A DNA stretch of 35,296 nucleotides from Spirulina sp. CS-785/01 (GTDB lineage: Bacteria; Cyanobacteriota; Cyanobacteriia; Cyanobacteriales; Spirulinaceae). The first letter of the stretch is position 1. Each line of letters begins with the position of its first letter. The translations under genes were made by a program, and so were the position numbers. Location of the stretch: the NCBI RefSeq assembly GCF_028330525.1, contig NZ_JAQMSD010000258.1, positions 1 to 35,296 on the forward strand. Reading direction: 5' to 3'. The notes under the pieces were generated by a model. The model did no database searches and was not told the DNA's origin. It was given only the letters and a program-made list of their open reading frames with translations. Shown here piece after piece: positions 6,650 through 33,589 of this stretch.

Positions 6650-6710
6650 GGAATTGAACCACTCCAGACACAGGGAGATGGGGGAGATGGGGAAGAACAA
6701 GGATTGATTC

Positions 6711-6757
6711 ATTATCCATTATCCATTATCCATTATCCAACCAATTACCCATTACCC
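6711..6757 (+). repeat. heptamer repeats ATTATCC (four units) and ATTACCC (two units)
   Basis: Four exact ATTATCC units are followed by a short interruption and two exact ATTACCC units. The array abuts the stop codon of the trm1 gene on the opposite strand. It is the clearest STRR-type array in the window. Confidence 0.85.
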
Positions 6758-6758
6758 A

Positions 6759-14364: not shown

Positions 14365-17016
14365 CTAGCGATTTTTCCAACTCCAAAAGGCTTGAAGAGG
14401 GCTTTTGGTCACATTACGAAGCCAATTTTGATCGCCATGAGCGCCATAAGTAGGTTGATAAGCGTGACCACCTTGTACCTCAAGATGTAAATGTCGTCCA
14501 AAACTACCATTCCAAATCGTTCCTAAGTTTTGTCCGACACTGACACGACTTCCGCTTGAAACTGTAGGTTTGGTGAGATGTCCATATACCCATTGATTGC
14601 CATCATCACCATTAATTCCTACAAACCAACCCCGTTTAGCATCATTATAGTTAACCCAGCTAACTTTTCCACTCACCACATTGCTTACTGAGGTTCCGGC
14701 TGATGCGCCAATATCAACACCCGCGTGCCATTTTCCTTGACCATTGTAATAGCTCGTGTCGTTTAAGTAACCTGCTGTCATGCGATAACGCGAACCTAAA
14801 GCAGCTTTAGATAAATCTGTGTAAATCTGCTTAACAGAATTTGGGTTTTTCCATCGTTCATCTGTTTCACCAAACCACATCGGAGGATCAAATCGAGTAT
14901 TATCCGATGTATATTGATCCCATTTATTACTGCTTAACGAGCTTAAACTTGAATAGTATCCAGAATTACGCAAATATATGGATTCATAGGCTACATTGTT
15001 GCTACCGTTACTTTCGCTTACATTGCTGTTCGCATCGGCGGCAAACAGAATATAATTCCAACCAGTATTGGCAGTGGTTGGTAGAGTGACATACTCAGAT
15101 TCATAACTCGATGATCCGGATGAGAGACTCCGCACATAATCATAATCGAGATAGGTATCATCATTGCTAAGAGTTGTATCATCGGAGAGGTAATATTTCA
15201 GACGACTTGACCCAGCATTACCATTCCCTTGGTTTTTCACCCGACTGGTAAGTTTGATGGTATCGCCTAATTTAGCAGAAGTGGGTGCAGTGTCGTTCTG
15301 TACCACTAGGTCCGGTCGAGAATTACGCAAATATATGGATTCATAGGCTACATTGTTACTACCGTTACTTTCGGTGACTTGATGATTAGCATCCGCTTCA
15401 AAAAGAATATAATTCCAACCAGTATTGGCGGTGGTTGGGAGAGTGACATACTCAGATTCGTAACTCGATGATCCGGATGAGAGACTCCGCACATAATCAT
15501 AATCGAGATAGGTGTCATCATTGCTGAGAGTTGTATCATCGGAGAGGTAATATTTCAGACGACTTGACCCAGCATTACCATTCCCTTGGTTTTTCACCCG
15601 ACTGGTGAGTTTGATGGTATCGCCTAATTTAGCAGAAGTGGGTGCAGTGTCGTTCTGTACCACTAAGTCCGGTTGGGGATTGCTCAGTTTAATACGTTCA
15701 TAAGCGATGTTATTTCCTTCGTTGCTTTCGGTGACGCGACTATTAGCATCGGCAGCAAAGAGGATGTAGTTTTGACCTGCTTTAACTGTATTAGGGAGAG
15801 TCACATAATCATATTCGTAACTCGATGATCCGGATGAGAGACTCCGCACATAATCATAATCGAGATAGGTGTCATCACTACTCAGTTTTGTATCATTCGA
15901 GAGGTAATATTTCAGGTAACTTGACCCAGCTTTGTCGCTACCATCATTTTTGACGCGACCTCCCACGTAAATGCGATCGCCCGCTTTGGCAGAATTGGTG
16001 GCGTAGGTGCGACTAACAATAAGGTCAGGCTTATTATTGGCAGCTTCTAAGGTTATCGCTTCATAGCGAATATTATTACTTTCGTTACTTTCAAAAACTT
16101 GTTGGTTTCCGTCTGCTTGAAAGAGTAAATAGTGCTTTCCTCCGCTTACCGTATCAGGTATGGTGACTCGCTCAGTTTCATAACTATAGCGATTCCCACC
16201 ACTCGTCGATAAAGGTTTCACATAATCTTGTCCGAGGAGAGTATCGTTAGAACTCAGGGTGGTGTCGTCGGAGAGATAATATTTTAAGGATGTGGAGTTA
16301 GCGGTGGCTTTCCCTTGATTAATGACGTAACTTCGTAAGTACACTGAATCCCCTGCTTTGGCTGAATTGGGGGCTGTTGTATAGAACATCCGGAGATCAG
16401 GACGGTTACTTTGTTCCATCACGCTATCAGCAGTTGCAAAATGATCATCCTCACTGCGGAAAGCAGTTAATTCAGCGTCAGAGAGAGGATGTCCTTGTAC
16501 TAAGGCTGCAAAAATTGCCCCTTCGTCTCCTGGGGTATCCGTGGTATTAATTTCTGTGTCGATGAAGTGACCGATTTCTTCTAAGACAACACTGGCAATG
16601 GCTTCATTACTGCTGCTATTGACAAATTCTGAGGCTACATAAATTTCTCCGGTTAAACTATCATAAGCCCCATCTGCATGATTCAGGGTTGCTGCACTTT
16701 TGACGCTGATGTTGGGAAGGTTGCCAAAGTCTCCGTCTGCATACTCTTGTAAGAGATCACTGGCAATGTCGTGGGCCAAGTTATCGCCAAAGGGGTGTTG
16801 GAGTTGCGCGATCGCATTTTCCCCACTCGCAAACTCCGTTAAATAGTCTTGGGCCAACTCAATCCCCAATTCTAAATTCTCTACATTAGTCCCTACCGGA
16901 TTATAGGTTTCTTGTGCCGTAGAGGGAATCATCAGATTGTCTGACCCCAATTGCTGATTCGGGTTAGAGAGGGAATCTAAAGAATAACTGGCTTCGTTAA
17001 AGGAAGATACATCCAT
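14365..17016 (-). CDS. large CARDB-repeat protein with C-terminal M23 peptidase domain
   Basis: An 883-residue protein. Residues 1-204 contain a cyanobacterial module with VVLEEIGHFIDTE near 144-156, which resembles an HExxH metalloprotease helix but has Glu in place of the first His. Residues 205 to about 685 hold four CARDB-type beta domains (each about 119 residues, opening PDLxV and ending SNNxxYExIxL). The C-terminal domain (about 755-860) is an M23 (lysostaphin/LytM) endopeptidase: GKWHAGVDIGASAG supplies the His and Asp zinc ligands, and GRHLHLEVQGG the last His pair. M23 enzymes cut peptidoglycan cross-links. CARDB domains usually mediate cell-surface adhesion or spacing. No Sec signal peptide or membrane segment is apparent at the N terminus, so the export route is unclear. 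The gene stands alone, with an AGGA site before the ATG. Confidence 0.88.
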   Translation of the reverse strand: MDVSSFNEASYSLDSLSNPNQQLGSDNLMIPSTAQETYNPVGTNVENLELGIELAQDYLTEFASGENAIAQLQHPFGDNLAHDIASDLLQEYADGDFGNLPNISVKSAATLNHADGAYDSLTGEIYVASEFVNSSSNEAIASVVLEEIGHFIDTEINTTDTPGDEGAIFAALVQGHPLSDAELTAFRSEDDHFATADSVMEQSNRPDLRMFYTTAPNSAKAGDSVYLRSYVINQGKATANSTSLKYYLSDDTTLSSNDTLLGQDYVKPLSTSGGNRYSYETERVTIPDTVSGGKHYLLFQADGNQQVFESNESNNIRYEAITLEAANNKPDLIVSRTYATNSAKAGDRIYVGGRVKNDGSDKAGSSYLKYYLSNDTKLSSDDTYLDYDYVRSLSSGSSSYEYDYVTLPNTVKAGQNYILFAADANSRVTESNEGNNIAYERIKLSNPQPDLVVQNDTAPTSAKLGDTIKLTSRVKNQGNGNAGSSRLKYYLSDDTTLSNDDTYLDYDYVRSLSSGSSSYESEYVTLPTTANTGWNYILFEADANHQVTESNGSNNVAYESIYLRNSRPDLVVQNDTAPTSAKLGDTIKLTSRVKNQGNGNAGSSRLKYYLSDDTTLSNDDTYLDYDYVRSLSSGSSSYESEYVTLPTTANTGWNYILFAADANSNVSESNGSNNVAYESIYLRNSGYYSSLSSLSSNKWDQYTSDNTRFDPPMWFGETDERWKNPNSVKQIYTDLSKAALGSRYRMTAGYLNDTSYYNGQGKWHAGVDIGASAGTSVSNVVSGKVSWVNYNDAKRGWFVGINGDDGNQWVYGHLTKPTVSSGSRVSVGQNLGTIWNGSFGRHLHLEVQGGHAYQPTYGAHGDQNWLRNVTKSPLQAFWSWKNR
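14962..15675 (-). repeat. two near-identical 357-bp in-frame direct repeats (third and fourth CARDB domains)
   Basis: The units 14962-15318 and 15319-15675 match almost base for base and encode 119 residues each. Their protein versions differ at about four positions near LFEADANHQVTES versus LFAADANSNVSES. The first two CARDB domains of the same protein are much more diverged. This suggests a recent tandem duplication within the gene. Confidence 0.9.
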
Positions 17017-18732: not shown

Positions 18733-20034
18733 ATGTTAGATAAATTCGACAAACATCTACCACAGCTTATATTGCTCAAAAAAAACACCTCTCGGCACAA
18801 TCCCCGTTCGGTTCAGTCCTCAAAACCGAAAAAAGTTTTGATTCTGACCCAGTTTTATCCACCGGATTATGCGGCAACGGGGCAACTCATTGCTGAATTA
18901 GCCAATCATCTGAGTGAGTTGGGGATGAAGGTGGGGATTTTTACCGGCCAACCGGGTTATGCGTTTGATCGGGATAATGCTCCGAAACAGGAGAGACAGG
19001 AGGGCATTTCGGTACAGCGATCGCGCACCTCCCGTCTCTGGCCCCTCCGCATTCGAGGCCGGGCCATCAACGGGTTGCTCTTTTGCCTCCGGACCGCCAT
19101 GCACCTACTGAAAGTGCAACGACGGTATGAACTCCTCTTAATCACCAGTGAACCGCCTTATTTGTCCATTTTGGGCTATCTGGCCTATCGTTGGTTTGGC
19201 CTCCCCTATACCTGTTTACTGTACGATCTCTACCCCGATGTGGCCGTTGCCCTCAATGTGTTACCCTCCCGTCATCTCCTCGTCCGCTTTTGGGACCAGA
19301 TTAACCGTCATATTTGGAAATCCGCCGAGAAAATTATCGTTCTCAGTCCCTCAATGAAAGAACGAGTCGTGAAAAAATGCCCCAGAATTGAGTCTAAAAT
19401 TCATGTAATCCCCAATTGGGCTGATTCTAGGATGATCACCCCCCTGAAAAAGCCCAAAAACTGGTTTGCCCGTCAACACCGGTTAACGGAGCGTTTTATC
19501 GTGCAGTATTCAGGCAATTTAGGCCGCTGTCATGATTTAAATACTATTCTGGTAGCGGCGGAATTATTGCGAGATCAACCCATTCAATTTCTGTTCATTG
19601 CCCGAGGGGCCCAGTTGGATGCTTGTCAAGAACGGGTAGAACGGGCAAATTTAAAAAATTGTCGATTTTTACCTTATCAAGACAAGGAGGTTTTACCCTA
19701 TTCTCTGACGGCCTGTGATTTGTCGTTGGTGAGTATTAGTCCAGGGTTAGAGGGGTTAGTGGCCCCTAGTAAGCTCTATGGGATTTTAGCCGCAGGCCGT
19801 CCTGTGGCAGCAGTTTGCGCCCCCCATTCCTATTTACGGGATGTTTTAGCGGAGGCTAAATGTGGGCGGGCGTTTGATAATGGGGATGGGGAAGGTTTAG
19901 CAAACTATATTTATAAGTTGTCCCAATATCCCCATTATGCCGAGTCGATGGGGCTATCCGGTCGCCAATATCTTCAAACCCATTTTACGCCTGAGATTGT
20001 GGCTAAGACATATTATGAGGTTTTGAATGGGTAA
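18733..20034 (+). CDS. glycosyltransferase family 4 (WcaI-like)
   Basis: A 433-residue GT-B glycosyltransferase. The N-terminal domain starts KKVLILTQFYPPDYAATGQL, the acceptor-side motif of WcaI-like colanic acid transferases, with a Gly-rich IFTGQPGY. The C-terminal nucleotide-sugar domain has VIPNWAD, FIVQYSGNLGRCHDL, and SPGLEGLVAPSKLYGILAAG, where the Glu of the retaining GT4 ExxG-type motif is expected. It probably transfers a sugar from a nucleotide donor onto a lipid-linked or polysaccharide acceptor at the inner face of the membrane. I use ATG (MLDKFDKHLP); a GTG 99 bases upstream would add 33 residues without family similarity. The stop TAA lies within AATGGGTAATGGGT heptamers, so the repeat forms the terminal Asn-Gly-stop. 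The donor is unknown. Confidence 0.9.
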   Translation: MLDKFDKHLPQLILLKKNTSRHNPRSVQSSKPKKVLILTQFYPPDYAATGQLIAELANHLSELGMKVGIFTGQPGYAFDRDNAPKQERQEGISVQRSRTSRLWPLRIRGRAINGLLFCLRTAMHLLKVQRRYELLLITSEPPYLSILGYLAYRWFGLPYTCLLYDLYPDVAVALNVLPSRHLLVRFWDQINRHIWKSAEKIIVLSPSMKERVVKKCPRIESKIHVIPNWADSRMITPLKKPKNWFARQHRLTERFIVQYSGNLGRCHDLNTILVAAELLRDQPIQFLFIARGAQLDACQERVERANLKNCRFLPYQDKEVLPYSLTACDLSLVSISPGLEGLVAPSKLYGILAAGRPVAAVCAPHSYLRDVLAEAKCGRAFDNGDGEGLANYIYKLSQYPHYAESMGLSGRQYLQTHFTPEIVAKTYYEVLNG

Positions 20035-20046
20035 TGGGTGAGGTAA
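20026..20046 (+). repeat. heptamer repeat AATGGGT (two units plus a degenerate third)
   Basis: AATGGGT, AATGGGT, GAGGTAA in register. It provides the GT4 stop codon and its last residues. Confidence 0.65.
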
Positions 20047-20077
20047 TTGGTTAGTGTTGCCTGTTCCCTTTGTCACC

Positions 20078-20121
20078 AAGAACAAAGAACAAACAACAAA
20101 TAACCAAGAACAAATAACAAA
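20078..20121 (+). repeat. heptamer repeat AAGAACA-like, six units
   Basis: The units AAGAACA, AAGAACA, AACAACA, AATAACC, AAGAACA and AATAACA follow a strict 7-base register and end next to the stop of the downstream minus-strand gene. Confidence 0.8.
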
Positions 20122-20122
20122 C

Positions 20123-20695
20123 TTACTTTAACAACTCCGTCAGTTCTTGGGCAGATGTGCCGAGGATGCGGGCTAAGGTGTTCATTTCGTTGTTGCTAAA
20201 GCCATCTCGGATTTCCATGAGTTCTTTAACAGACTTGCCGAGAATGCGGGAGATGACTTTCAGTTGTTCGTCGCTGATATCCTTCCCTCGGTAAATGTCC
20301 CGTAATTCTTGGGGAGAGAGACGATAGGAGTTGCAGAAGAAAACAAATTCTTTATCTGAGACATCTAATTCTCGTTGCCGATCGCGCAATAAAAATGCGA
20401 TCGCACGAGTCCCATGTTCTGGCCGTTTAGCGTTTTCCAAATAACGCTCCATTAACTTTGTCACCCGGGCCGGATTTCCCCCTGTCCGCTTAATCAAATC
20501 CGCACAGGCCATTTGTAAGGCTTTTCTCAGCGTTTCATTATCATCATGGAGTTCTTCATCTTCGTTGAGGGTTTCAACGATCCGGGCCGCAATTTCTGGG
20601 CTACAAAACCCCACTTCCCGATCTTCATAAACAATAGCAATATAGGTGCGGTCGGCGTTAAATTCCAGATGCAGGGGTTGATTCGTCTGTTTCAT
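20123..20695 (-). CDS. unrecognised protein with three helical repeats
   Basis: A 190-residue, highly charged, soluble protein I do not recognise. The N-terminal half (1-110) contains VYEDREVGFCSPEIAARIVE and an acidic NEDEELHDDNE stretch. The C-terminal part consists of three 22-residue repeats with the same pattern: S113 to I134, S141 to I162 and S167 to L188, each of the form S-x-x-E/Q then a hydrophobic helix, then S-x-x-E-L-x-x-I/L. Each unit looks like a helix-turn-helix pair, but no classic DNA-binding signature is clear. It has a plain ATG start and stands alone between the GT4 gene and a kinase fragment. It is probably a cyanobacterial conserved hypothetical; a regulatory or protein-binding role would be a guess. 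Confidence 0.75.
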   Translation of the reverse strand: MKQTNQPLHLEFNADRTYIAIVYEDREVGFCSPEIAARIVETLNEDEELHDDNETLRKALQMACADLIKRTGGNPARVTKLMERYLENAKRPEHGTRAIAFLLRDRQRELDVSDKEFVFFCNSYRLSPQELRDIYRGKDISDEQLKVISRILGKSVKELMEIRDGFSNNEMNTLARILGTSAQELTELLK

Positions 20696-20818
20696 TAATC
20701 TGACTTCTCACGAAACGGTGGTTCTAAAGCAGGAGGATAGACAAGACTGTCTTAACGCTAGTTCTCAAAGCTAGCTTGGGAGGTCAGTTATCTCAATCAT
20801 AGCGGGTGCTATAAGGGA

Positions 20819-21295
20819 TTATCTCATCTCTAGGGTAGGAAGTCGGACTTGAGCAATGGTTTTAGGGAGTGAACCCGTTTCCCCAGAGGAGATGGCTTGA
20901 GATTCTAGTGTAAACGTTCCGTTATGGGCTTGAACAATTTGTTTAACAATTGCTAATCCCAAGCCATTCCCTGTGGATTTGGTGGTCAAAAAGGGTTGCA
21001 TTAGTTTGGGTAAAAGGTTTGCGGGAATCGGTGAACCGCCATTGATCACGGAAAACACAACTTGTTGTTGTTCTGATTCTACTGACTCAACGGCCTCAGA
21101 CGCATTACTAATTAAATTAATCAACACTTGTTTTAGTTTATCCGAGTCTGCCCACAGAGTGAGGGAGTCAGAAAGGGGAGGATAGTGGAGATGCTGCCCT
21201 GATGTAGATATCATTGCTTTTGTGGATTCGATTATTCCCACCATAAATTCCGCTACATTCAGTTGACAACAGTGTAATGTCTGAGGATTGATAAA
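20819..21295 (-). pseudogene. truncated sensor histidine kinase (ATPase domain only)
   Basis: The reading frame carries the kinase ATPase domain: an N-box (LKQVLINLISNASEA), an F-box-like MQPFLTTKSTG and a G2 box (GNGLGLAIVKQIV). The expected G1 box DxGxG is replaced by VINGGSPIP. There is no sensor domain and no phosphoacceptor His region. Kinase-like sequence continues upstream of the only ATG (21244), as NPQTLHCCQLNVAEF, until a stop at 21296-21298. That stop lies in an ATTACCC heptamer array. The N-terminal half therefore seems to have been deleted, with the break at the repeat. If translated from 21244 it would give a 141-residue ATPase-domain protein, but without the His domain it cannot autophosphorylate in cis. 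A real stand-alone ATPase-domain protein is the alternative. Confidence 0.65.
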
Positions 21296-21315
21296 TTACC
21301 CATTACCCAATTCCC
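21295..21315 (+). repeat. heptamer repeat ATTACCC, ATTACCC, AATTCCC
   Basis: Three units in register, placed exactly at the 5' break of the truncated histidine kinase and upstream of atpD. Confidence 0.7.
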
Positions 21316-21383
21316 ATTGATCGCCGATCCCCGAAGGATGATACCCTGAAGAATGGAAAAAATTGTATTAAATCGAGACTTAG

Positions 21384-22928
<1,545 letters not shown>

Positions 22929-22935
22929 ACCACTA

Positions 22936-22976
22936 AAGCGATGGGTGTTGGATACACCTATCGCTTGATTTTTTTT
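22936..22976 (+). terminator. terminator-like hairpin between atpD and atpC
   Basis: Arms AAGCGATGGGTGT (22936-22948) and ACACCTATCGCTT (22954-22966) pair over 13 positions with one G-U, around a 5-base loop, and are followed by an eight-T run. It has all parts of an intrinsic terminator. Because atpC follows without an obvious separate promoter, it probably acts as a partial terminator or as an mRNA-stabilising hairpin that sets the beta:epsilon ratio. Confidence 0.75.
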
Positions 22977-23000
22977 GGACAATAACACGGGGTTTGAGAG

Positions 23001-23414
23001 ATGACATTAAATGTGCGTGTGATTGCTCCCGATAAGACCGTTTGGGACGATCAAGCAGAAGAAGTAATTTTACCGAGTACCACAGGACAATTAGGGGTGT
23101 TATCCGGTCACGCTCCCCTGTTGACGGCCTTAGATGTGGGAGTCATGCGGGTACGGGATAAGAAAGACTGGTTAAATATTGCCCTGATGGGTGGATTTGC
23201 CGAAGTTGAAGAAAATACCGTCACCATTTTAGTCAATGGGGCGGAACGGGGCGATGCCATTGATGAAGAAAAAGCCCGTTCTGAGTTTGAAGAAGCGAAA
23301 GAACAGTTAAACAAAATGTCGGGGGATGACCGCGCCCGGAAAATCCAAGCCGAACAAGCCTTAAAGCGCAGCAGAGTGCGTTTTCAGGCTGCTGGGGGTT
23401 TGGTGAAAGCCTAA
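23001..23414 (+). CDS. atpC: F0F1 ATP synthase subunit epsilon (cyanobacterial atpE)
   Basis: A 137-residue subunit of the F1 central stalk, which couples rotation and can inhibit ATP hydrolysis. The N-terminal beta sandwich shows [38 protein letters not shown] and [20 protein letters not shown]; the C-terminal two-helix region (about 88-137) starts [15 protein letters not shown]. Its length is typical of cyanobacteria. It is in an operon with atpD. The GAGAG immediately before the ATG is the likely ribosome site. It is followed by a strongly repetitive spacer and a hairpin that probably ends the operon. Confidence 0.98.
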
Positions 23415-23444
23415 CGGTTTTCCCAGTCTTCTCTGTCGAGCAGC

Positions 23445-23514
23445 AGAGACAAAAGCGCGAAAGAGAGACAAAAGCGCGAAAGACAAAGCGCGAAAGACAA
23501 AGCGCGAAAGACAA
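23445..23514 (+). repeat. purine-rich tandem repeat AGACAAA(A)GCGCGAA, four units
   Basis: Four copies of a 14-19 base unit built on GACAAA(A)GCGCGAA follow the atpC stop. The last runs directly into the left arm of a hairpin. There are no spacers or conserved palindromes, so it is not CRISPR. Confidence 0.85.
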
Positions 23515-23553
23515 AAAGGAGGAGAGAGTCAATTTAAACTCTGTCCTCCTTTT
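23514..23553 (+). terminator. hairpin and probable intrinsic terminator of the atpD-atpC operon
   Basis: The left arm AAAAGGAGGAGAGAGT (23514-23529) pairs with ACTCTGTCCTCCTTTT (23538-23553) with one mismatch, leaving an 8-base loop. The right arm ends in TTTT. On the other strand the left arm also ends in a T-run, so it could serve both the atp operon and the convergent ycf65 gene. Confidence 0.6.
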
Positions 23554-23579
23554 CTGTCCTCCTTTTCTGTCCTCCTTTT
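23541..23579 (+). repeat. three exact copies of CTGTCCTCCTTTT
   Basis: Exact 13-base units at 23541, 23554 and 23567. The first is the right arm of the preceding hairpin, so the other two are extra copies of a terminator arm. Confidence 0.9.
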
Positions 23580-23612
23580 ATGGGGAACGGACCAATTAGC
23601 CCATCGGGGGGA

Positions 23613-23942
23613 TTAATTGCTCCCGGTGAAGATAACATGGGGAAACTTGCTTTGGGCCACAGACCAAGGGGTTCTTTTCCCTTCTTCTTGCCAGAAGTTA
23701 ATAACTTCAGTCGCTTGGTTGAGGAGGGCGATGCGTTCTGTTTCATCGATCCAACTTTTGGACTCTAATTCCGTTTTCAGTTGTTCCCAAGCGTCATTGC
23801 GCGGCCAGAAGAAGTATTGGGTCAGAGGACTCGTGCCTTTTCCCACTACTTGATCGACTGCGATCGCAATATTGGCATCCAGCCACAAAATCTTTAAAAT
23901 AAAGCGAGCATCGGTTTCTAAAGCTGTCGTTGTTGTGTCCAA
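23613..23942 (-). CDS. ycf65: ribosomal protein PSRP-3/Ycf65
   Basis: A protein of about 109 residues in the plastid- and cyanobacteria-specific ribosomal protein 3 family, a 30S component found only in these lineages. The family core is clear: [62 protein letters not shown] and FWQ. No ATG lies upstream in frame. The TTG giving [11 protein letters not shown] has GGAGG five bases before it, so I use it; the frame is open to TTG 23954 and a GTG at 23948 is also possible. It converges on the atp operon. Confidence 0.88.
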
Positions 23943-24073
23943 GTCCACCTCCAAGGCAATAGGTTAATTCAATCACGATAAAACCGCAATTTACAATTAT
24001 ATCCTACTGATATCCTTTTGAGGGCTTTATTCCCTCACAGTGAACATCATAACTTTTTCAGTAAACCCTACCT

Positions 24074-24865
24074 ATGATTCTCATATTTGATATTGATGGA
24101 GTCGTGCGAGATGTGAGTCGGTCTTATCGTCGGGCCATTGCCGATACCGTCGAACATTATACGCAAACCGCCTATCGCCCCACCATGGCCGACATCGACA
24201 CCCTAAAAAGCGAAGGCATCTGGAACAACGACTGGGAAGCCTCCCAAGAACTCATACACCGCTACGGGGAGTCCCAAGGCCAACCACGAGAACACCACCC
24301 CATCGACTATCCCCAACTCATCAAATTCTTTCAATCGCGCTATTTTGGCACAAATCCCGAAACCTGGGACGGTTACATCACCACCGAACCCCTCTTACTC
24401 TCCCTCGACTATCTCCACACCCTCAGCGACAATAACATTGCCTGGGGGTTCTTTAGCGGAGCAACTCGCGGTTCAGCCGAATATGTCCTAGTTCACCGTT
24501 TAGGCATCGAAAACCCGGTTATTGTGGCCATGGAGGATGCACCCAGCAAACCTGATCCAACTGGACTCTTTGCCACCATTGAACAATTAGAACAACAACA
24601 TCAATTCGCCGACAATACCCCAGTGTTTTATGCCGGGGATACCGTAGCGGATATGTACACCATTACCAAAGCCCAAGAAAAACAACCTCAACGCCCTTGG
24701 ATTGGGGTAGGCGTTCTCCCCCCTCATGTCCAAGGGGAAACGGAGCGCAGTGAGGCATATAGCAGCAAATTAGAAGACGCTGGAGCTTCTCTGGTGGTCA
24801 AGCAAATAACAGAACTCACCCCAGAGGTTTTGCGTGGGTTTCAGAGTTATATGACATCCGGTTAA
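24074..24865 (+). CDS. HAD-superfamily hydrolase, TIGR01548 type
   Basis: A 263-residue cytoplasmic HAD phosphatase-like protein. Motif I is IFDIDGVVRDVSRS (nucleophile Asp6, second Asp8). A helical cap with EGIWNNDWEAS follows. Motif II is in FFSGATRG (Ser), motif III is the Lys of APSKPDP, and motif IV is YAGDTVADMY. The cap and the overall pattern match the TIGR01548 group of cyanobacteria and plants, whose substrate is not known to me. The gene is alone, with a short hairpin 18 bases after its stop. Confidence 0.85.
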   Translation: MILIFDIDGVVRDVSRSYRRAIADTVEHYTQTAYRPTMADIDTLKSEGIWNNDWEASQELIHRYGESQGQPREHHPIDYPQLIKFFQSRYFGTNPETWDGYITTEPLLLSLDYLHTLSDNNIAWGFFSGATRGSAEYVLVHRLGIENPVIVAMEDAPSKPDPTGLFATIEQLEQQHQFADNTPVFYAGDTVADMYTITKAQEKQPQRPWIGVGVLPPHVQGETERSEAYSSKLEDAGASLVVKQITELTPEVLRGFQSYMTSG

Positions 24866-24882
24866 TCCTTATAAGTTCGTAG

Positions 24883-24900
24883 TAAGCCCTAAAGGGCTTA
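24883..24900. terminator. palindrome TAAGCCC-TAAA-GGGCTTA after the HAD gene
   Basis: A perfect 7-base stem with a 4-base loop is embedded in GTTCGTAG...TATAAT, a context like small mobile hairpin elements common in cyanobacteria. It may act as a terminator. The following TAATAAATT has no long T-run, so this is moderate. Confidence 0.4.
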
Positions 24901-25056
24901 TAATAAATTGGTTTCATACAAATCAAGCGGATTTCATATTAAATGACTCGCCAGAGCATTGAACGTCAGCATTCAGAGTTGGACAGGTTCACCCAGTAGC
25001 CAGTTGGCGAAGTCTAGGGCAATTGTTGGGCGAAAAATTGACGATATTGTCGTACA

Positions 25057-25392
25057 TTAGAGTATCCTTTTACCGAGGGGGACATTGCGATCGGGTTGTA
25101 ACAGGGAGACCTCTCCCCCATCAAGGACAACGCCTAAAACTAGCACTTCCGAGAGGAAATCGGCAATTTGTCGGGGGGGCAAGTTAGTGACGGCAATGAC
25201 CAAGCGATCGCGCAATTCCGCCTTACTATACAGTTGAGTAATCTGTGCGCTCGATGTCTTCACCCCCAACTCCCCAAAATCAATCCATAACTGATAAGCA
25301 GGTTTCCTGGCCTTGGGGAAATCCTCCACCCGTTGAACCCGGCCCACCCGCATTTCAATCTTTTCCAAATCACTGTAACGAATGTCAGACAT
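25057..25392 (-). CDS. csaA: CsaA/Trbp111-like tRNA-binding protein
   Basis: A 111-residue stand-alone OB-fold tRNA-binding domain of the EMAPII/Trbp111 family. The pattern is standard: YSDLEKIEMRVGRVQRVEDF, KARKPAYQLWIDFGELG, SSAQITQLYSKAEL, RLVIAVTNLPPRQIADFLSE and VLVLGVVLDGGEVSLLQPDR, ending VPLGKRIL. Such proteins are dimers that bind the outer corner of tRNA; CsaA has also been linked to chaperone and export functions in Bacillus. The ATG is preceded by GGGAG at a good distance; an adjacent GTG one codon upstream is possible. It is divergent from glgX, with about 170 bases between. Confidence 0.88.
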   Translation of the reverse strand: MSDIRYSDLEKIEMRVGRVQRVEDFPKARKPAYQLWIDFGELGVKTSSAQITQLYSKAELRDRLVIAVTNLPPRQIADFLSEVLVLGVVLDGGEVSLLQPDRNVPLGKRIL

Positions 25393-25562
25393 CACTTCTC
25401 CCTGGGTTAAGTTTGGGGAAATTTTCTCGACTCCCTGCGATCGCGGTCAAGTTTTGAGAAAATCAATTTAAGATAAATTTGCGAATCTTAATCAGGTCTT
25501 TCACCGGAAAATAGAAATCCTCAGCCTGACACCGACCGTATCACCCAAATCACTGCAATATT

Positions 25563-27689
25563 ATGAGCTTATCAATCTGGACTGGACAATCGTATCCACT
25601 TGGGGCCACCTGGGATGGCAAAGGCACAAACTTTGCAATTTTTAGTGAAAACGCCGATGCAGTAGAATTATGCCTGTTTGACGAACAGGACCGAGAAACC
25701 CGCATTGAACTCACAGAAGTCAATCACTTTGTTTGGCATTGCTACCTCCCCGGTATTGGACCCGGCCAACGATATGGTTATCGAGTCTATGGGCCCTTTC
25801 TCCCCAGTTATGGCCATCGCTTTAATGCCAATAAACTCTTAATTGATCCCTATGCCAAAGCCATTGCGGGAGATGTGACTCACGACGAGTCAGTTTTTGC
25901 CTATCCTTGGGAGAGTGACGATGAAGACTTAGGCTTTTCTAGCTTAAATAGTGCCGCTTGCATCCCGAAAGGCATTGTCATTGATGAATCCTTTGACTGG
26001 GAAGGAGATGAACTCCTGAGAATTCCCCGCCATGAGTCAGTGATCTATGAAGTCCATGTGAAAGGGTTTACCCAACAACATCCCGATATTCCCAAACCTT
26101 TACGAGGGACCTATGCTGGGTTAGCCCATCCTGTCGCCATTGATTATCTCAAATCCCTCGGTATTACAGCCGTTGAACTCCTTCCGGTTCACCATTTCCA
26201 CAAAAATCAAGGTCATTTAGTCGCCAAAGGATTAACCAATTATTGGGGATATGACTCCCTCAACTTTTTTGCCCCCTACTCCGGCTATAGTTCGAGTGGG
26301 ATGTATGGGGAACAAGTCCGAGAGTTTAAGGAAATGGTCAAAGCCTTACACCAAGCTGGCATTGAGGTGATTCTCGATGTGGTATATAACCATACCGGGG
26401 AAGGCAACCAAATGGGGCCGACGCTTTCTTTTCGGGGGATTGATAATTCTTCCTATTATCGAACCGTTGAAGATAATAAACGCTATTATATGGACTTTAC
26501 CGGGTGCGGCAATTCCCTCAATGTTCGTCATCCCCAAGTATTAAAGTTAATTACCGATAGTTTGCGCTATTGGGTGCAGGAAATGCACGTGGATGGTTTC
26601 CGCTTTGATCTTGCCTCTGCCCTCGCACGGGAATTGTATGATGTCAATAATTTAGCCGCATTCTTTAATATTATTCACCAAGACCCGGTATTATCCACCG
26701 TTAAACTCATTGCTGAACCCTGGGATATTGGTGAAGGAGGCTATCAGGTGGGGAATTTTCCCTTGCTGTGGTCCGAGTGGAATGGCAAATATCGGGATAC
26801 CATTCGAGATTTTTGGCGCGGCCAAGATAGTAATTTAGCCGAGTTTGCTTATCGGTTTACCGGAAGTTCAGACTTGTATGAGTCCAATGGCCGCAGTCCC
26901 AGTGCTAGTATTAACTTTATTACCGCCCATGATGGGTTTACCCTCAATGATCTGGTAAGTTACAACGATCGCCATAATGAAGAAAATGGAGAAGATAATG
27001 AAGATGGGGACGAACATAACCGTTCTTGGAATTGTGGCGAAGAAGGGGAAACCGATGATTCGGAGGTGTTACAGTTGCGGTCTCGACAACAACGAAACTT
27101 CCTCGTCACCCTCATGTTATCTCAAGGGGTCCCCATGTTACTCGGTGGGGATGAAATGGGCCGCACCCAAAAGGGTAATAATAACTCCTACTGTCAAGAT
27201 AACGAAACCTCGTGGTTTGATTGGAGTTTAGCCACCAAAAATATTGATTTACTAGAATTTACCCGTCAGTTAATCGCCTTCCATCACGAAAACCCCGTTT
27301 TTCAACGTCGTCAATGGTTTCAGGGACGAGCCATTCACGGGTCAGGCATCCGGGATATTGGCTGGTACAATGCCACTGGGGAGGAAATGACTGAGGAACA
27401 GTGGAATGAGGGCTATATTACCGCCATTAGCATCTTTCTCAATGGCGAAGAAATTAATATCCCAGACGAGAAAGGACGGCGTATTATTGGGGATAGTTTT
27501 CTCCTCCTGTTTAATGCCCATTATGAACCCTTAGAGTTTACTATTCCCGAAGACTTGCAGCAATGGCAATGGCAAATGTTAATTGATACCACCTTGCCCA
27601 AGTTTGTGGAAAATGGGAAAGTTTATGAGGATGATCAACCCATCGAAGTGGAAGCCCGGTCTTTAATGGTTTTCAAACGACTACGCTAG
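25563..27689 (+). CDS. glgX: glycogen debranching enzyme GlgX (isoamylase type)
   Basis: A 708-residue GH13 enzyme that cuts alpha-1,6 branches of glycogen in the cytoplasm, releasing linear oligosaccharides for storage-carbon breakdown. An N-terminal CBM48 domain (about 10-120) begins SYPLGATWDGKGTNFAIFSE. The GH13 catalytic barrel has VILDVVYNHTGEG, VDGFRFDLASAL (nucleophile Asp349), KLIAEPWDIG (acid/base Glu385) and FITAHDGFTLND (Asp457). The C-terminal beta domain ends VEARSLMVFKRLR. All catalytic residues are present and the length is normal. The gene stands alone, convergent with the DUF3493 gene nine bases downstream. Confidence 0.97.
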   Translation: MSLSIWTGQSYPLGATWDGKGTNFAIFSENADAVELCLFDEQDRETRIELTEVNHFVWHCYLPGIGPGQRYGYRVYGPFLPSYGHRFNANKLLIDPYAKAIAGDVTHDESVFAYPWESDDEDLGFSSLNSAACIPKGIVIDESFDWEGDELLRIPRHESVIYEVHVKGFTQQHPDIPKPLRGTYAGLAHPVAIDYLKSLGITAVELLPVHHFHKNQGHLVAKGLTNYWGYDSLNFFAPYSGYSSSGMYGEQVREFKEMVKALHQAGIEVILDVVYNHTGEGNQMGPTLSFRGIDNSSYYRTVEDNKRYYMDFTGCGNSLNVRHPQVLKLITDSLRYWVQEMHVDGFRFDLASALARELYDVNNLAAFFNIIHQDPVLSTVKLIAEPWDIGEGGYQVGNFPLLWSEWNGKYRDTIRDFWRGQDSNLAEFAYRFTGSSDLYESNGRSPSASINFITAHDGFTLNDLVSYNDRHNEENGEDNEDGDEHNRSWNCGEEGETDDSEVLQLRSRQQRNFLVTLMLSQGVPMLLGGDEMGRTQKGNNNSYCQDNETSWFDWSLATKNIDLLEFTRQLIAFHHENPVFQRRQWFQGRAIHGSGIRDIGWYNATGEEMTEEQWNEGYITAISIFLNGEEINIPDEKGRRIIGDSFLLLFNAHYEPLEFTIPEDLQQWQWQMLIDTTLPKFVENGKVYEDDQPIEVEARSLMVFKRLR

Positions 27690-27698
27690 TGGGGTACG

Positions 27699-28001
27699 CT
27701 AGTTGGGGGGAGTCCGACTCCGGCCTTGTTTGGGGCTTTTTTTCCGTTCCTTATCAATGCGGAATAACCACACCATCAAGGCTACCACCCCCACCTGTAG
27801 CGCGAAATTGGGTAATGCGTTACTCACATTACGGCCTGCGGCAATTTGCGCTAAGAAAATGACAGCCCCAATGAGTCCAGAGGCCCCGAAGGTAAAATAC
27901 GCAAACCGCCGTAACCCACGATAGGGGTTACGGGCTTCTTCTTTCAACTTGGCGTATTTTTCGGGGCCGAGTTTTTTACCGGGGGGGTTAGACTTAGACA
28001 T
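27699..28001 (-). CDS. DUF3493 small membrane protein
   Basis: A 100-residue protein. The basic N terminus has KLGPEKYAKLKEEARNPYRG; two transmembrane helices follow (about 32-54 YFTFGASGLIGAVIFLAQIA and 63-81 FALQVGVVALMVWLF), and the tail is basic. This matches the DUF3493 family of cyanobacteria and chloroplasts, whose plant members have been linked to photosystem II assembly; the exact role of this protein is not known from sequence. Its stop is only nine bases from the convergent glgX stop. Confidence 0.82.
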   Translation of the reverse strand: MSKSNPPGKKLGPEKYAKLKEEARNPYRGLRRFAYFTFGASGLIGAVIFLAQIAAGRNVSNALPNFALQVGVVALMVWLFRIDKERKKSPKQGRSRTPPN

Positions 28002-28121
28002 GGAAGACTTCGCATTGAACGGGCGACTGGATGACCAAGCATCAGGACTCGCTTGGAGAAAATTGTAACAGGTTTTCTCCTCTAGTGTTCTTATGTTATA
28101 GTGGGTAATTGCCGATGAATT

Positions 28122-28193
28122 GCCCGATTAGCTCAAAGGTAGAGCGATCCACTCGTAATGGATAGGCTAGCGGTTCAAGTCCGCTATCGGGCT
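28122..28193 (+). tRNA. tRNA-Thr (anticodon CGT)
   Basis: A full cloverleaf: acceptor GCCCGAT/ATCGGGC, D arm GCTC/GAGC, anticodon stem ATCCA/TGGAT with loop CTCGTAA (anticodon CGT at 28154-28156, reading ACG), a 5-base variable loop, and T arm AGCGG/CCGCT with loop TTCAAGT. The discriminator base is T and no CCA is encoded. Position 26 is G (28146), the target of Trm1-type enzymes. A TATAGT (28097-28102) sits about 20 bases upstream. Confidence 0.95.
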
Positions 28194-28282
28194 TTAAAAA
28201 TTTTTCCCGATCTAGCCTCCTTTCACACTGCCCTATCCATTCCAAGGGTTAACCTCTAGTAGGGGATTTACTCGACTTTAAT

Positions 28283-28303
28283 CAGTCATCAGTCATCAGT
28301 GAA
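28283..28303 (+). repeat. heptamer repeat CAGTCAT, three units
   Basis: CAGTCAT, CAGTCAT, CAGTGAA in register, in the gap between the tRNA and the 3' end of the disulfide reductase gene. Confidence 0.65.
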
Positions 28304-28444
28304 ATAAGCCTTGAACAGTCAGGTTTTCCAGCATTGGCTATGCTCAAACGCATCCCCGTAATGCTAGATCAATGGCCCATCTCACCCCTGCAAAAAAGCT
28401 CTAGACATCACGAGACAGCGCGATCTCCTTCACGAGAGACTAGC

Positions 28445-30100
28445 CTACAGGAATCCATTTCCTGCGAAATTTAAATAGGTTTGATACCCTCCCGTTAAAT
28501 TTGCCGCATCATAGCCATTTAAGCGTAAAGCACGGGTGGCATAATAGGCCCGTTGACCCACTTGGCAATAGACGTGAATCGGTTTCTCTTGAGGGAGTTC
28601 TGCCATTCGTTCCCGTAATTGATTCAAAGGAATATTCACCGTCCCTTCAACATGGCCGCGCTCAAACTCATCCACATCTCGGACATCTAACAACACCCCC
28701 TGAGACAAGTCCACTTGGTCCCATTGAATAATCGGTGCATCTCCCCGTAAATGGTTGGCCGCAATCATTCCGGCAAAATTCACTGGGTCTTTCGCTGCGC
28801 CAAATTGGGGAGCATAACACAACTCGGCCTCCTCCAAATCATACACCGTGCTATGCTGTTGCACGGCCATGGCAATCACATCAATGCGCTTTTCCGTCCC
28901 TTCTTCGCCTACCGCTTGCGCTCCCAAAATACGCCCATCCTCTGGGGAAAAGAGCAGTTTTAAATCAATGGGTTTTGCTCCAGGGAAGTAACCAACGTGG
29001 TGGCCGGGGTGTAAATAGACTTTCTCGTAGGGAATATTGGCTCGTTTCAGGGTTTTTTCACTTGCTCCGGTACTCGCTACGGTGAGGCCAAAGATGCCAC
29101 AGACAGATGTACCTTGAACCCCTCTAAATTCTACCTCTCGGCCCGCGATGGTGTCCGCAGCAATGCGGCCCTGGCGGTTGGCGGGGCCTGCTAAGGGGAT
29201 CAGGGTCCATTCCTTGGTAATATAATCTTGCACCTCCACGGCATCCCCCACAGCCCAGATAGAAGGATCGCTGGTTTGCATCTTTGCATTAACGCGAATG
29301 CCTCCCCGTTGGCCTAATTCTAAACCCGCGTCTTGGGCGAGTTTATTCTCCGGACGCACCCCAATGCCTAAAATGACGAGATCAGCGTGATATTGTTGTC
29401 CGGACTGGGTAGAGACGATGATTTCGTCCTCTGCTTGGGTAAATTCTTTCACTCCGTCACTCAGAGCAAGATTCACTCCTTGGGCTTTTAATTTATGATG
29501 GACAGGTGTCACCATTTCGGGATCAACGGGGGGTAAGACTTGGGGGAGTTGTTCTACGAGGGTGACGTTAATGTCTCGATGAACGAGGTTTTCAGTCATT
29601 TCTAAGCCGATAAACCCCCCACCGACGACAATGGCCCGTTGTACATTATGTTCGCTGATCCAACTGCGAATGCGGCGACTGTCGGGGATGGTGCGTAGGG
29701 CAAAGATTCCTGGTAAGTCTAACCCCGGAATGGGGGGACGCACGGGGGACGCACCAGGGGCTAAAACTAGCGCATTGTAGGCTTCTTGGTAGGTTTTATC
29801 CTGTTGTAAATCTTTAACGGTGATGGTTTTTTGGTCTCGATCAATGCTTAATACTTCATTTTCGAGACGGACTTCTATGTTAAAACGGTCTTTAAAGAGT
29901 TCTGTATTGGCAACGAGGAGCTTTTTCTCCTCTTGGATGACATCTCCCACGTAGTAGGGGAGGCCACAGTTGGCAAAGGAGACAAATGAACCGCGATCGA
30001 ACATGATGATTTCTGCATCTTCATCCATACGACGCGATCGCGCGGCACAAGAGGCCCCTCCCGCAACTCCGCCAACGATTAAAATTCGTTTCTGTGCCAT
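28445..30100 (-). CDS. CoA-disulfide reductase-like flavoprotein fused to a rhodanese domain
   Basis: A 551-residue protein of the pyridine nucleotide-disulfide oxidoreductase class. FAD binding is at RILIVGGVAGGASCAARSRR (5-24). The redox Cys is in SFANCGLPYYVG (Cys45), the single-Cys arrangement of CoA-disulfide and NADH-dependent persulfide/polysulfide reductases. NAD(P)H binding is at RAIVVGGGFIGLEMTENL, and a second FAD motif is IWAVGDAVEV. The C-terminal part (about 455-551) is a rhodanese domain with active-site loop HVYCQVGQRA (Cys512). The fusion matches CDR-RHD/NPSR-type enzymes, which reduce CoA disulfide, CoA persulfide or polysulfide. A role in sulfane sulfur or thiol homeostasis is therefore likely. 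It has a plain ATG and stands alone. Confidence 0.9.
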   Translation of the reverse strand: MAQKRILIVGGVAGGASCAARSRRMDEDAEIIMFDRGSFVSFANCGLPYYVGDVIQEEKKLLVANTELFKDRFNIEVRLENEVLSIDRDQKTITVKDLQQDKTYQEAYNALVLAPGASPVRPPIPGLDLPGIFALRTIPDSRRIRSWISEHNVQRAIVVGGGFIGLEMTENLVHRDINVTLVEQLPQVLPPVDPEMVTPVHHKLKAQGVNLALSDGVKEFTQAEDEIIVSTQSGQQYHADLVILGIGVRPENKLAQDAGLELGQRGGIRVNAKMQTSDPSIWAVGDAVEVQDYITKEWTLIPLAGPANRQGRIAADTIAGREVEFRGVQGTSVCGIFGLTVASTGASEKTLKRANIPYEKVYLHPGHHVGYFPGAKPIDLKLLFSPEDGRILGAQAVGEEGTEKRIDVIAMAVQQHSTVYDLEEAELCYAPQFGAAKDPVNFAGMIAANHLRGDAPIIQWDQVDLSQGVLLDVRDVDEFERGHVEGTVNIPLNQLRERMAELPQEKPIHVYCQVGQRAYYATRALRLNGYDAANLTGGYQTYLNFAGNGFL

Positions 30101-30253: not shown

Positions 30254-30365
30254 CTACTATAACTTGGGCAAACTCAGCTTTTCCTCTTGATTTGGTAGTA
30301 TAGAATCCTAAGTTCACTGGGAAAATTGCCCAGAGTTGCTTGCTGTCTCATTTTTTTGGATTATT

Positions 30366-31904
30366 ATGTCGCAGAAACGCGAAATCAAACTGTTACTCAG
30401 TACCCTCATCATCACAGCAGTGATCCTTGGAGGGGGATATTGGTTGTTACGAGGGCAGTTTGGGGGAGAAACTGCATCGAGAAACAGTCAAACAGATACT
30501 TCGGGCAACTCTCAACCCCTACCCGCAAAAATCACCACGGGAGACAGTATATTATTCTCCAATGCTACCCCACAAAAACAGGATGCGGTTCAACAGTTAG
30601 CCAATGGGAATTATACCGAAGCACAAAACCTTTTGAATGTCTCACTCAAGATAAACCCCAATGATCCCGAAGCGGTGATTTATCGCAATAATGCCCAATT
30701 ATTGGCCAACCCCCAAAATGAATATTACACCATTGCAGTGGTTGTCCCAGTGCGCGTGTTAGATGACCAAAATAAAGCAGCGGCCATCTTGCGAGGAGTG
30801 GCACAGATGCAAACGGAAATTAATCAGTCTTCTGCCCAAATTAATGGCAAGGGGTTAAAGGTAATTATTGCCGATGATGCTAATAGTTTAAGTGAAGCTG
30901 AAGCGGTGGCCCAAGAGTTAGTCAATCAAGAGGAATTAATTGCCGTTATTGGTCACTATACCAGCGAAACCACTGAAGCTGCGTTACCGATTTATCAAGA
31001 AAATCAAGTGGTGTTAATGTCGGCCAGTAGTACCTCGGATACTTTTTCTAACTATTGTCGAAATCAGAGTAATTCTTGTGTCTTCTTCCGCACCATCGCT
31101 AATAATGAGAAGTCGGTGGATTTCTTCTCGGAAAGACTAATTAATAATGCCCGTCGTGCCAGTCTTTTGTATAGTCAGAATAGCGAGTATAGTCAGTCGT
31201 TTCAAAAGAACTTCCAAGAGACGTTCCCCAATAAAGGAGGCACAGTCATTAATCTGTCACAAACCGATTTATCCACGGCAGGGTTTAACCCTTCCCAAGT
31301 GATAGAAAATGCCCAACAACAGGGAGTAGAAGGATTGGTGCTTGTTCCCGATGGGGGAACTTCTGCGGCCTCGTTAAGAAATGCCATTGCTTTAATCGAA
31401 ACGAATCAAGGTCAATTATGGATGGCGGGTTCAAGTTCCTTATATAATCCTACGGTTTTAGACTCCCTGCAAAATGCTCCAAACCAAACCTTAAATACAT
31501 TGGCAATTTATACCCCTTGGCATTATAGTAATGGTTGTGAAACTCCGGCAGGACAACAATTTTGTAATGGCGCACAGCAATTATGGGGGACTCGTTTTGT
31601 GAGTTGGCGAACGGCAACGGCTTATGATGCCACCAGTGCGCTTACTGCGGGATTAAAGCAACTCTCGCCTAACACGAATAATCCTCAAGAAATCCGGCAA
31701 GGTTTATTGAATACTCTTGCTAATCCGAGCTTTGAAACCCAAGGTGCGACAGGAATTGTGGCGTTTGATCCGAATACTCATAACCGCGTTAATCCTCCTT
31801 TAGAAATTGTCAAAGTTCGCCAATGTTCTGGAGTACAATATGGTTTAGCTTTTGTTCCCATAGAATATAATTCGACTAAGGAAGCGGGATTAAGTTGTTC
31901 TTAG
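30366..31904 (+). CDS. membrane-anchored type 1 periplasmic binding protein (branched-chain amino acid type), copy 1
   Basis: A 512-residue protein starting MSQKREIKLLLS, chosen because the tandem paralogue begins the same way; the frame opens 30 bases upstream at a TTG. A single hydrophobic segment (about 9-28, LLLSTLIITAVILGGGYWLL) with no lipobox predicts an uncleaved anchor. A single TPR-like unit (NGNYTEAQNLL to AVIYRNNAQLL, about 75-115) follows. The rest is a Leu/Ile/Val-binding-type fold: YYTIAVVVPVRV, AAILRGVAQMQTEIN, LKVIIADDANS, AVIGHYTSETTEAALPIYQ, MSASSTSDTFSNYC and VLVPDGGTSAASLRNAIAL. Such proteins feed ABC transporters or act as sensors. No permease or ATPase is adjacent, so a sensory or scaffold role is possible. 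The ligand is unknown. Confidence 0.85.
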   Translation: MSQKREIKLLLSTLIITAVILGGGYWLLRGQFGGETASRNSQTDTSGNSQPLPAKITTGDSILFSNATPQKQDAVQQLANGNYTEAQNLLNVSLKINPNDPEAVIYRNNAQLLANPQNEYYTIAVVVPVRVLDDQNKAAAILRGVAQMQTEINQSSAQINGKGLKVIIADDANSLSEAEAVAQELVNQEELIAVIGHYTSETTEAALPIYQENQVVLMSASSTSDTFSNYCRNQSNSCVFFRTIANNEKSVDFFSERLINNARRASLLYSQNSEYSQSFQKNFQETFPNKGGTVINLSQTDLSTAGFNPSQVIENAQQQGVEGLVLVPDGGTSAASLRNAIALIETNQGQLWMAGSSSLYNPTVLDSLQNAPNQTLNTLAIYTPWHYSNGCETPAGQQFCNGAQQLWGTRFVSWRTATAYDATSALTAGLKQLSPNTNNPQEIRQGLLNTLANPSFETQGATGIVAFDPNTHNRVNPPLEIVKVRQCSGVQYGLAFVPIEYNSTKEAGLSCS

Positions 31905-31915
31905 ATTTGGTTTAG

Positions 31916-31950
31916 AAGGCAAAAGGCAGAAGGAAGGAAGAAGGAGGAAG
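31916..31950 (+). repeat. heptamer repeat AAGGCAA-like, five units
   Basis: AAGGCAA, AAGGCAG, AAGGAAG, GAAGAAG and GAGGAAG in register, starting 11 bases after the stop of the first binding protein. Confidence 0.7.
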
Positions 31951-32062
31951 TTAGCCTAAGAAGAAGGACAGAAATTAATCAGAGTAAGGCTGTTAGCTCA
32001 ATTTAAGTAATTTTAGTTTCTGGATAGTCACTAAAACTAATTACCAATTACCAAATAAGACC

Positions 32063-33589
32063 ATGGCCAAGCTACGGGAAATCAAAATTTTAATCGGCAC
32101 ATTAGGGATTACTGCTGCTATTTTGGGGGGAGGATTTTGGGTGATCAAAGACCGTTTCTTAGGAAACCAAGCGAGGGATCCCAACTCCTCCTCCACCGAA
32201 GAAACCTTACCAGCCCAAATCACTGCCGGAAGCACCATTTTATTTGCCGATCCCTCTGAGGAGAAACAACAGGCCGCAGCAGCGTATAATCAAGCCAATT
32301 ATGCCGAAGCGGAGACGTTATTTCAAGCGGCTTTAGCGGAGTCTCCCAACGACCCCGAAACGGTGATTTATTATAATAATGCTCAATTGCTGGCCCAGGC
32401 GGATGCCGACTATTATACTATTGCTGTGGTTGTCCCAGCACGGGTAAAGGATGATCAGAATAAAGCGGCGGGAATTTTGCGGGGAGTGGCCCAAGTTCAA
32501 CAACAAATTAATCAGTCGGCCACCCAAATTAATGGGAAGGGATTAAAAGTCATTATTGCTGATGATGCCAATAGTTTAAGTGAAGCGAGAAAGGTTGCTC
32601 AAAAGTTAGTCCAGGATGAGGAAATTTTGGCGGTGATTGGTCATTATAGTAGTGGGACGACTGAGGCCGCTTTATCGGTTTATCAAGATAATCAGATGGT
32701 TCTCTTGTCTGCAAGTAGTACCTCTGACACCTTTTCGACCTTTTGCGAAAGTCAGGCCGACTGTGTGTTCTTCCGGACTATTGCCAATAATCAGAAGTCG
32801 GTGGACTTTTTTGCGGAACAGTTAATTGAGAATGCGCGACGGGCGACGATTTTTTATAGTTTCAATAGTGATTATAGTCAGTCCTTTCAAGAGAACTTTC
32901 AAACCCTGTATCCCCGTCAAGGGGGGACGGTGGTGGAGTTGGGTCAAACAGACTTGTCAAAAGCGGGGTTTAATCCGTCGCAAGTGTTGGAAGAAGCGGG
33001 ACAGCAGGGGGTTGAGGGGTTGGTGTTAGTGCCGGATGGGGGGACTTCTGCGGCTTCGTTGAGGAATGCGATCGCGTTAATGGAAACCAACCAAGGCCAA
33101 TTGTGGGTTGCGGGGTCTAGTTCCCTGTATAATGCGGCGGTTCTAGAAGCCTTAGCAGACGACTCAGAGCAAGTTTACAATACGTTTACGGCTTATACCC
33201 CTTGGCATCATACAACGGGCTGTAATACGCCCTCTGGGCAACAGTTTTGTCGAGAAGCGCAGCAAGTCTGGGGGACGAAGTTTGTCAGTTGGCGGACGGC
33301 TACTGCTTATGATGGGACTCGTGCGTTAGAAGCAGCTTTAAAACTGCTGCCTAGAGATAATAATAATCATAGACAACTCCGCCAACAGTTAAGGAATATT
33401 CTGGCGGATGGGAATTTTGAAACCCAAGGGGCCACGGGAGTGGTGGCCTTTGATGAGGGAACACACAACCGCACTGATCCCCCTTTGGAAATGGTGCGTA
33501 TTCGCAGTTGTCCTAGTGCGAGTTATGGGTTAGCGTTTGTGCCGAGTGAGTATAATTCCGCCGAGGATGCGGGGTTGAGTTGTAATTAG
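32063..33589 (+). CDS. membrane-anchored type 1 periplasmic binding protein, tandem paralogue (copy 2)
   Basis: A 508-residue paralogue of the preceding gene with the same plan: anchor (MAKLREIKILIGTLGITAAI), one TPR-like unit (NQANYAEAETLFQAALAES), then the type 1 binding fold with near-identical blocks (QINGKGLKVIIADDANS, EGLVLVPDGGTSAASLRNAI, ETNQGQLW, VSWRTATAYD, FETQGATG). Differences cluster in the linker and in short loops. The 158-base gap from copy 1 holds a heptamer repeat and no clear terminator, so co-transcription is possible. Codon usage is more GC-rich at many synonymous positions than in copy 1. Its TAG overlaps the convergent GST stop. Ligand and function are unknown. Confidence 0.85.
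   Translation: MAKLREIKILIGTLGITAAILGGGFWVIKDRFLGNQARDPNSSSTEETLPAQITAGSTILFADPSEEKQQAAAAYNQANYAEAETLFQAALAESPNDPETVIYYNNAQLLAQADADYYTIAVVVPARVKDDQNKAAGILRGVAQVQQQINQSATQINGKGLKVIIADDANSLSEARKVAQKLVQDEEILAVIGHYSSGTTEAALSVYQDNQMVLLSASSTSDTFSTFCESQADCVFFRTIANNQKSVDFFAEQLIENARRATIFYSFNSDYSQSFQENFQTLYPRQGGTVVELGQTDLSKAGFNPSQVLEEAGQQGVEGLVLVPDGGTSAASLRNAIALMETNQGQLWVAGSSSLYNAAVLEALADDSEQVYNTFTAYTPWHHTTGCNTPSGQQFCREAQQVWGTKFVSWRTATAYDGTRALEAALKLLPRDNNNHRQLRQQLRNILADGNFETQGATGVVAFDEGTHNRTDPPLEMVRIRSCPSASYGLAFVPSEYNSAEDAGLSCN

Follow-up and report, generated by a model that had tools for sequence, protein, structure and literature searches.

Bidirectional intrinsic terminators are a known kind of element between convergent genes, and replication slippage is a well-known mechanism for the gain of tandem copies. 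Among short repeats, a close named class for the arrays described here is that of the cyanobacterial short tandemly repeated repetitive (STRR) sequences. A third system is that of the GGGNATC heptamer repeats of Xanthomonas and Nostoc: they are reported to be intergenic and rare between divergent genes, with the G-rich strand being the sense one downstream of a stop codon and the antisense one upstream of a start codon; they were proposed to form quadruplexes, and inverted repeats were noted as able to form stem-loops (Rehm 2015, PMC4692102).

In this work we analysed an atpE–ycf65 spacer that resembles each of these systems in part. It lies in a window of 35,296 nucleotides (the whole stretch of DNA that was analysed) from Spirulina sp. 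CS-785/01, whose genome amounts to 5.4 Mb in 351 contigs. A purine-rich array, a strong hairpin and an exact 13-mer in three copies follow each other in that order; the array–hairpin–array arrangement noticed in a preliminary description was confirmed in the sequence, and the spacer is indeed shared with a convergent PSRP-3/Ycf65 gene, which ends at 23613 on the - strand. The features are the following.

23001-23414, + strand: atpE/atpC, F1 ATP synthase epsilon subunit (TIGR01216, 139 bits for a cut-off of 67.25; PF02823; PF00401)
23445-23509, + strand: purine-rich tandem array GACAAA(A)GCGCGAA (TRF scores 78 and 91; direct repeats D1 and D3)
23510-23529, + strand: hairpin left arm, which starts with the fifth GACA (23510) and has its core at 23514-23529 (inverted repeat I1)
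23530-23537: hairpin loop, 8 nt
23538-23553, + strand: hairpin right arm, which includes 13-mer copy 1 (23541-23553) (fold and inverted repeat)
23541-23579, + strand: pyrimidine-rich array of three exact CTGTCCTCCTTTT copies (TRF score 80; pattern search)
23613-23954, - strand: ycf65/PSRP-3, the convergent gene (NF002740, 182.7 bits for a cut-off of 135; PF04839 above cut-off)

Elsewhere in the window, two adjacent overlapping ORFs (1554-2428) correspond to successive segments of a single Bpu10I-type restriction endonuclease model and probably represent a split restriction gene; a C5 cytosine methylase gene (370-1542) adjoins them. The product of the gene at 14365-17016 is 883 aa long and combines CARDB domains with an M23 peptidase domain; the gene contains a 357-nt tandem repeat in 2.7 copies. 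Two paralogous proteins of the periplasmic binding (receptor-ligand) type are encoded side by side at 30336-33589.

The CTGTCCTCCTTTT copies start at 23541, 23554 and 23567 and are identical, the first being part of the hairpin right arm, as the preliminary description had proposed. All four GACAAA(A)GCGCGAA units that it placed before the hairpin were also found (starts at 23448, 23467, 23482 and 23496), but not with a single period: their spacing is 19, 15 and 14 nt, and TRF reads the left array as 2.1 x 19 nt (23445-23483) and then 3.5 x 14 nt (23466-23515, a row that extends partly into the first bases of the hairpin), all these unit numbers coming from one assembly, in which a copy-number error is possible. 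The TRF scores are 78, 91 and 80; in 1000 dinucleotide-shuffled versions of the spacer the best score is 65, so that none reaches 78. Like STRR sequences, these are short tandem arrays in a spacer, and the 14-nt period is 2 x 7, the left unit parsing as GACAAAG + CGCGAAA. They differ from STRR in that the right unit has 13 nt and the left array also has a 19-nt period, neither of which fits a doubled 7-nt unit as 14 does, and in that the units are not dispersed at many places in the genome. Within the order, weak array matches came from 9 other genomes out of 291. Seven weak-match loci were read; five of them (L208, L209, L210, L211 and L213) carry 7- or 14-nt arrays of the ACAAAGA/GACAAAG kind, at unrelated places, and the other two (L212 and L214) contain no ACAAAGA-like array. 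Given the arrays at these five loci, the left unit would fit a doubled cyanobacterial heptamer, which the right unit does not.

The hairpin arms (23514-23529 and 23538-23553) are 94% complementary over 16 nt around the 8-nt loop. The fold of a 186-nt stretch of the spacer has a z score of -3.7, equalled by none of 200 shuffles; 23505-23566 folds at -27.3 kcal/mol on the + strand, and the energy of the stem-loop ranges from -22.7 to -27.3 kcal/mol (+) and from -22.2 to -32.8 kcal/mol (-) according to the stretch folded. Since it lies about 100 nt past the atpE stop and 60 nt past the ycf65 stop, it is the stable stem-loop shortly after a stop codon that is expected of an intrinsic terminator. 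As in bidirectional intrinsic terminators, a stable stem stands between two stop codons, with an A run on one side and a T run on the other that would make it usable from both strands. It is unlike them in that the T run is within the stem and one arm is tandemly repeated. The stem itself ends in TTTT and is followed by CTGTCCTC, which is why a consensus terminator scan, which looks for a strict T run, did not flag the hairpin. A search for known RNA families in positions 20000-28500 found a tRNA alone, and our literature search found no report of tandem arrays within terminator arms among the papers it listed. A canonical terminator-like hairpin with eight T is present at 22936-22966, between atpB and atpE. 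A short inverted repeat occurs in 59 of 95 distinct atpB–atpE spacers, with at least five T at or after the stem in only two of them, that of the window included; this terminator-like hairpin could lower epsilon output relative to beta.

The 13-mer (23541-23579) has CCTCCTTTT in common with the putative 16S rRNA 3' end of the same genome, and the first part of the left arm (23514-23523, AAAAGGAGG) is a perfect Shine–Dalgarno-like sequence. Anti-Shine–Dalgarno mimicry was rejected: no start codon is found at the usual distance except the TTG, on the - strand, of a 99-aa antisense ORF that has no Pfam match. The CCTCCTTTT likeness is taken as a by-product of the purine/pyrimidine composition.

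Among 110 loci with an epsilon gene, ycf65 is convergent within 900 bp at 36. These gave 32 distinct spacers, of which 31 remained after one with N runs was dropped and 30 were tested, one being too long for shuffles. Inverted repeats better than 95% of 100 mononucleotide shuffles were found in 26 of the 30 (window included), in species that are not independent of each other; the other four have no significant hairpin. The arms are mostly unrelated in sequence from one spacer to another, with the exception of a group with AAAAGGCAAAAG-like arms (L013, L049, L061 and L074). Tandem arrays (TRF score of at least 36) are present in 6 of the 31 spacers (window, L015, L022, L035, L037 and L057). With a hairpin in 26 of 30 spacers and arrays in 6 of 31, it is the hairpin that recurs at the atpE–ycf65 junction, and the arrays are optional. 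An array overlaps a hairpin arm in five of the six array-bearing spacers, compared with 4.08 expected by random placement (p = 0.35). In four other cyanobacteria (L037, L057, L035 and L015) the arms at this junction are formed by unrelated tandem arrays: TAGGTAA/TTACTTA, GTTGTTA/AACAACC, a CAGTGACCAGTAAC array and a 32-mer. Left arms at the junction have more G than C (20 to 7) and are rich in purines (24 to 4) in these 31 related, hence not independent, species.

How common arrays are in spacers of this genome was determined with genes called by a simple hexamer score, in 347 kb including the window and then in a further 278 kb. Among spacers of 40-350 nt, arrays occur in 19 of the 42 that are convergent, in 47 of the 138 codirectional ones and in 9 of the 55 divergent ones; the 3'-side frequency differs from that of divergent spacers with p = 0.005 in the pooled samples and 0.013 in the first. 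Because so many convergent and codirectional spacers carry them, an array beside a gene end is ordinary in this genome. Period 7 is the commonest (66 of 119 arrays), and period 14 (2 x 7) occurs 9 times. Another 3'-end spacer of the window (6616-6761) contains AGTTGAG, GGGAGATGG and CATTATC arrays in series. Overlaps between an array and a hairpin arm were counted in the same samples (convergent 2 for 1.4 expected, codirectional 3 for 6.0 expected) and in two other genomes, G009 (codirectional 1 for 1.3) and G044 (convergent 1 for 0.5, codirectional 4 for 4.7); divergent spacers have none in any sample. These numbers are at the level of random placement, so that a preferential seeding of arrays in hairpin arms is not supported and the amplified arm does not reflect a general rule; isolated spacers do have an array in a hairpin arm (7 of 153, among them L138:1467-1525 and L135:8682-8732).

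We propose, with a probability of roughly 0.7 for the two parts taken jointly, that the bidirectional 3'-end hairpin is the working part of the spacer and that the flanking arrays are near-neutral minisatellites born of slippage. The hairpin is the likely functional part, and the arrays likely slippage products, because a hairpin, mostly of unrelated sequence, is found in 26 of the 30 spacers. On the + strand it reads AAAAGGAGGAGAGAGT...ACTCTGTCCTCCTTTT and would form the 3' end of the atpB–atpE transcript, while a near-identical structure on the - strand would form that of the ycf65 transcript; it probably ends transcription, protects 3' ends, or both. Replication slippage would have copied the hairpin right arm twice more to give the right array, and the GACAAA-GCGCGAAA sequence that borders the left arm on its outer side to give the left array. 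The extra copies are predicted to leave the dominant hairpin as it is and are probably close to neutral. The arrays, the hairpin, the convergent genes, the single occurrence in the genome, the dominance of copy 1 in folding and the hairpins of relatives are observed, and termination in vivo, the slippage origin and near-neutrality are inferred; the arrays at this junction look like ordinary fast-changing cyanobacterial spacer repeats.

Neutral slippage by itself does not account for the strand polarity of arrays in these genomes. In the first sample, the sense strand of arrays at gene 3' ends is mostly G-rich (33 to 7 of 41), whereas those in the later half of codirectional spacers are G-rich to C-rich 8 to 13 of 25 (p = 3e-5). 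The same comparison of G-rich to C-rich arrays gave 19 to 11 versus 3 to 8 in the second sample (p = 0.007), 16 to 5 versus 1 to 8 in G009 (p = 0.001) and 12 to 3 versus 1 to 13 in G044 (p = 0.0003), that is 47 to 19 versus 5 to 29 when these test samples are pooled (p = 3e-8), all p values being optimistic since one spacer may contribute several arrays. The rule, replicated in three test samples, is thus that the sense strand of an array is rich in G past a stop and rich in C ahead of the next gene; the few arrays of divergent spacers are mixed in polarity. Both arrays of the spacer studied here follow this rule, the left one weakly and the right one strongly (skew 0.67 on the ycf65 sense strand).

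This polarity leads to the alternative that the arrays themselves are 3'-end elements, G-rich sequence after the stop and C-rich sequence further on making a generic, sequence-relaxed stem, in an order that would be selected across cyanobacterial spacers. This alternative would agree with the arrays found on both arms in 3 of the 31 atpE–ycf65 spacers (L015, L037 and L057; 1.06 expected, p = 0.054), and the same polarity is reported for GGGNATC-type repeats (Rehm 2015, PMC4692102). Array-free hairpins show no G-to-C polarity genome-wide (22 to 18). The arrays of one spacer are, however, no more complementary to each other than to those of other spacers (65 pairs, p = 0.45; by genome, p = 0.50 in Spirulina, 0.60 in G009 and 0.01 in G044, the last on 8 pairs only), although the test is slightly weakened by the chance that a true partner was drawn among the other spacers; mutual complementarity is not supported overall. 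The lack of polarity of array-free hairpins and of preferential pairing within spacers indicates that the polarity is not simply hairpin geometry. The random level of array–arm overlap also speaks against arrays acting as stems, the left array of this spacer has only a slight excess of G over C (skew 0.13-0.21), and array-free half-spacers, which otherwise have no polarity, are G-skewed in the first halves of G044 too (40 to 17). We consider it rather unlikely that the arrays are themselves the 3'-end elements. It also seems unlikely that, in filamentous cyanobacteria at large, arrays are ordered 3'-end elements providing a loose, renewable stem, which would have taken over the arms at atpE–ycf65 repeatedly and independently with unrelated units. 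The spacer arrays share with GGGNATC repeats an intergenic position, scarcity between divergent genes, a G-rich strand that is sense past the stop and antisense ahead of the next start, and inverted repeats with stem-loop potential (Rehm 2015, PMC4692102); they differ in lacking G triplets, GGG being absent from both units on either strand where a quadruplex would need four such triplets, which makes a quadruplex impossible.

The preliminary description had also suggested that alternative hairpins with different loops can form. Copies 2 and 3 are indeed complementary enough to the left arm for pairing (93%, inverted repeats I2 and I3), and the extra 13-mers might by this route give longer-loop hairpins whose copy number tunes termination strength or the position of the 3' end. 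Pairing with the left arm amounts to -22.7, -15.3 and -15.4 kcal/mol for copies 1, 2 and 3 on the + strand and to -22.2, -14.1 and -13.4 kcal/mol on the - strand, which places the alternatives 7-9 kcal/mol above copy 1 on both strands. In the whole-spacer ensemble the mean pair probabilities of the three copies are 0.989, 0.000 and 0.000 (+) and 0.920, 0.074 and 0.000 (-), copy 2 thus taking 7% of left-arm pairing on the - strand, and on the + strand copy 1 is synthesised before the others. Outer purine units pair somewhat with copies 2 and 3 on the - strand (4.9 and 8.8 expected pairs), and this lengthens the stem and does not replace it. The alternative hairpins exist on paper and are not populated; a tuning role of copy number is therefore very unlikely.

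Whole-genome searches found the array at this place alone, and the dispersal as a mobile repeat envisaged in the preliminary description was not seen: BLAST of the spacer against its own genome returned, apart from the spacer, eight matches that span 15-22 nt and have E values no lower than 0.34, and with at most one mismatch the 14-mer occurs at 4 other places (2 for its reversed control) and the 13-mer at 8 places beyond its three copies and the left arm (13 for its reversed control). The insertion of a dispersed mobile repeat, for which the related ACAAAGA-type heptamer arrays of other cyanobacterial genomes might argue, is highly improbable given these counts and the absence of any match between the array and viral contigs, and a MITE- or REP-like element, which should be present in several copies at unrelated places, was rejected.

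The locus itself matters little, being one more fast-changing tandem array that adjoins a terminator-like hairpin. What the comparison adds is that an array polarity published for one G-rich heptamer (Rehm 2015, PMC4692102) extends, in three sampled genomes, to tandem arrays of many units, and that atpE–ycf65, one gene pair with sequence-unrelated hairpins, allows the role of arrays at the ends of transcripts to be tested.
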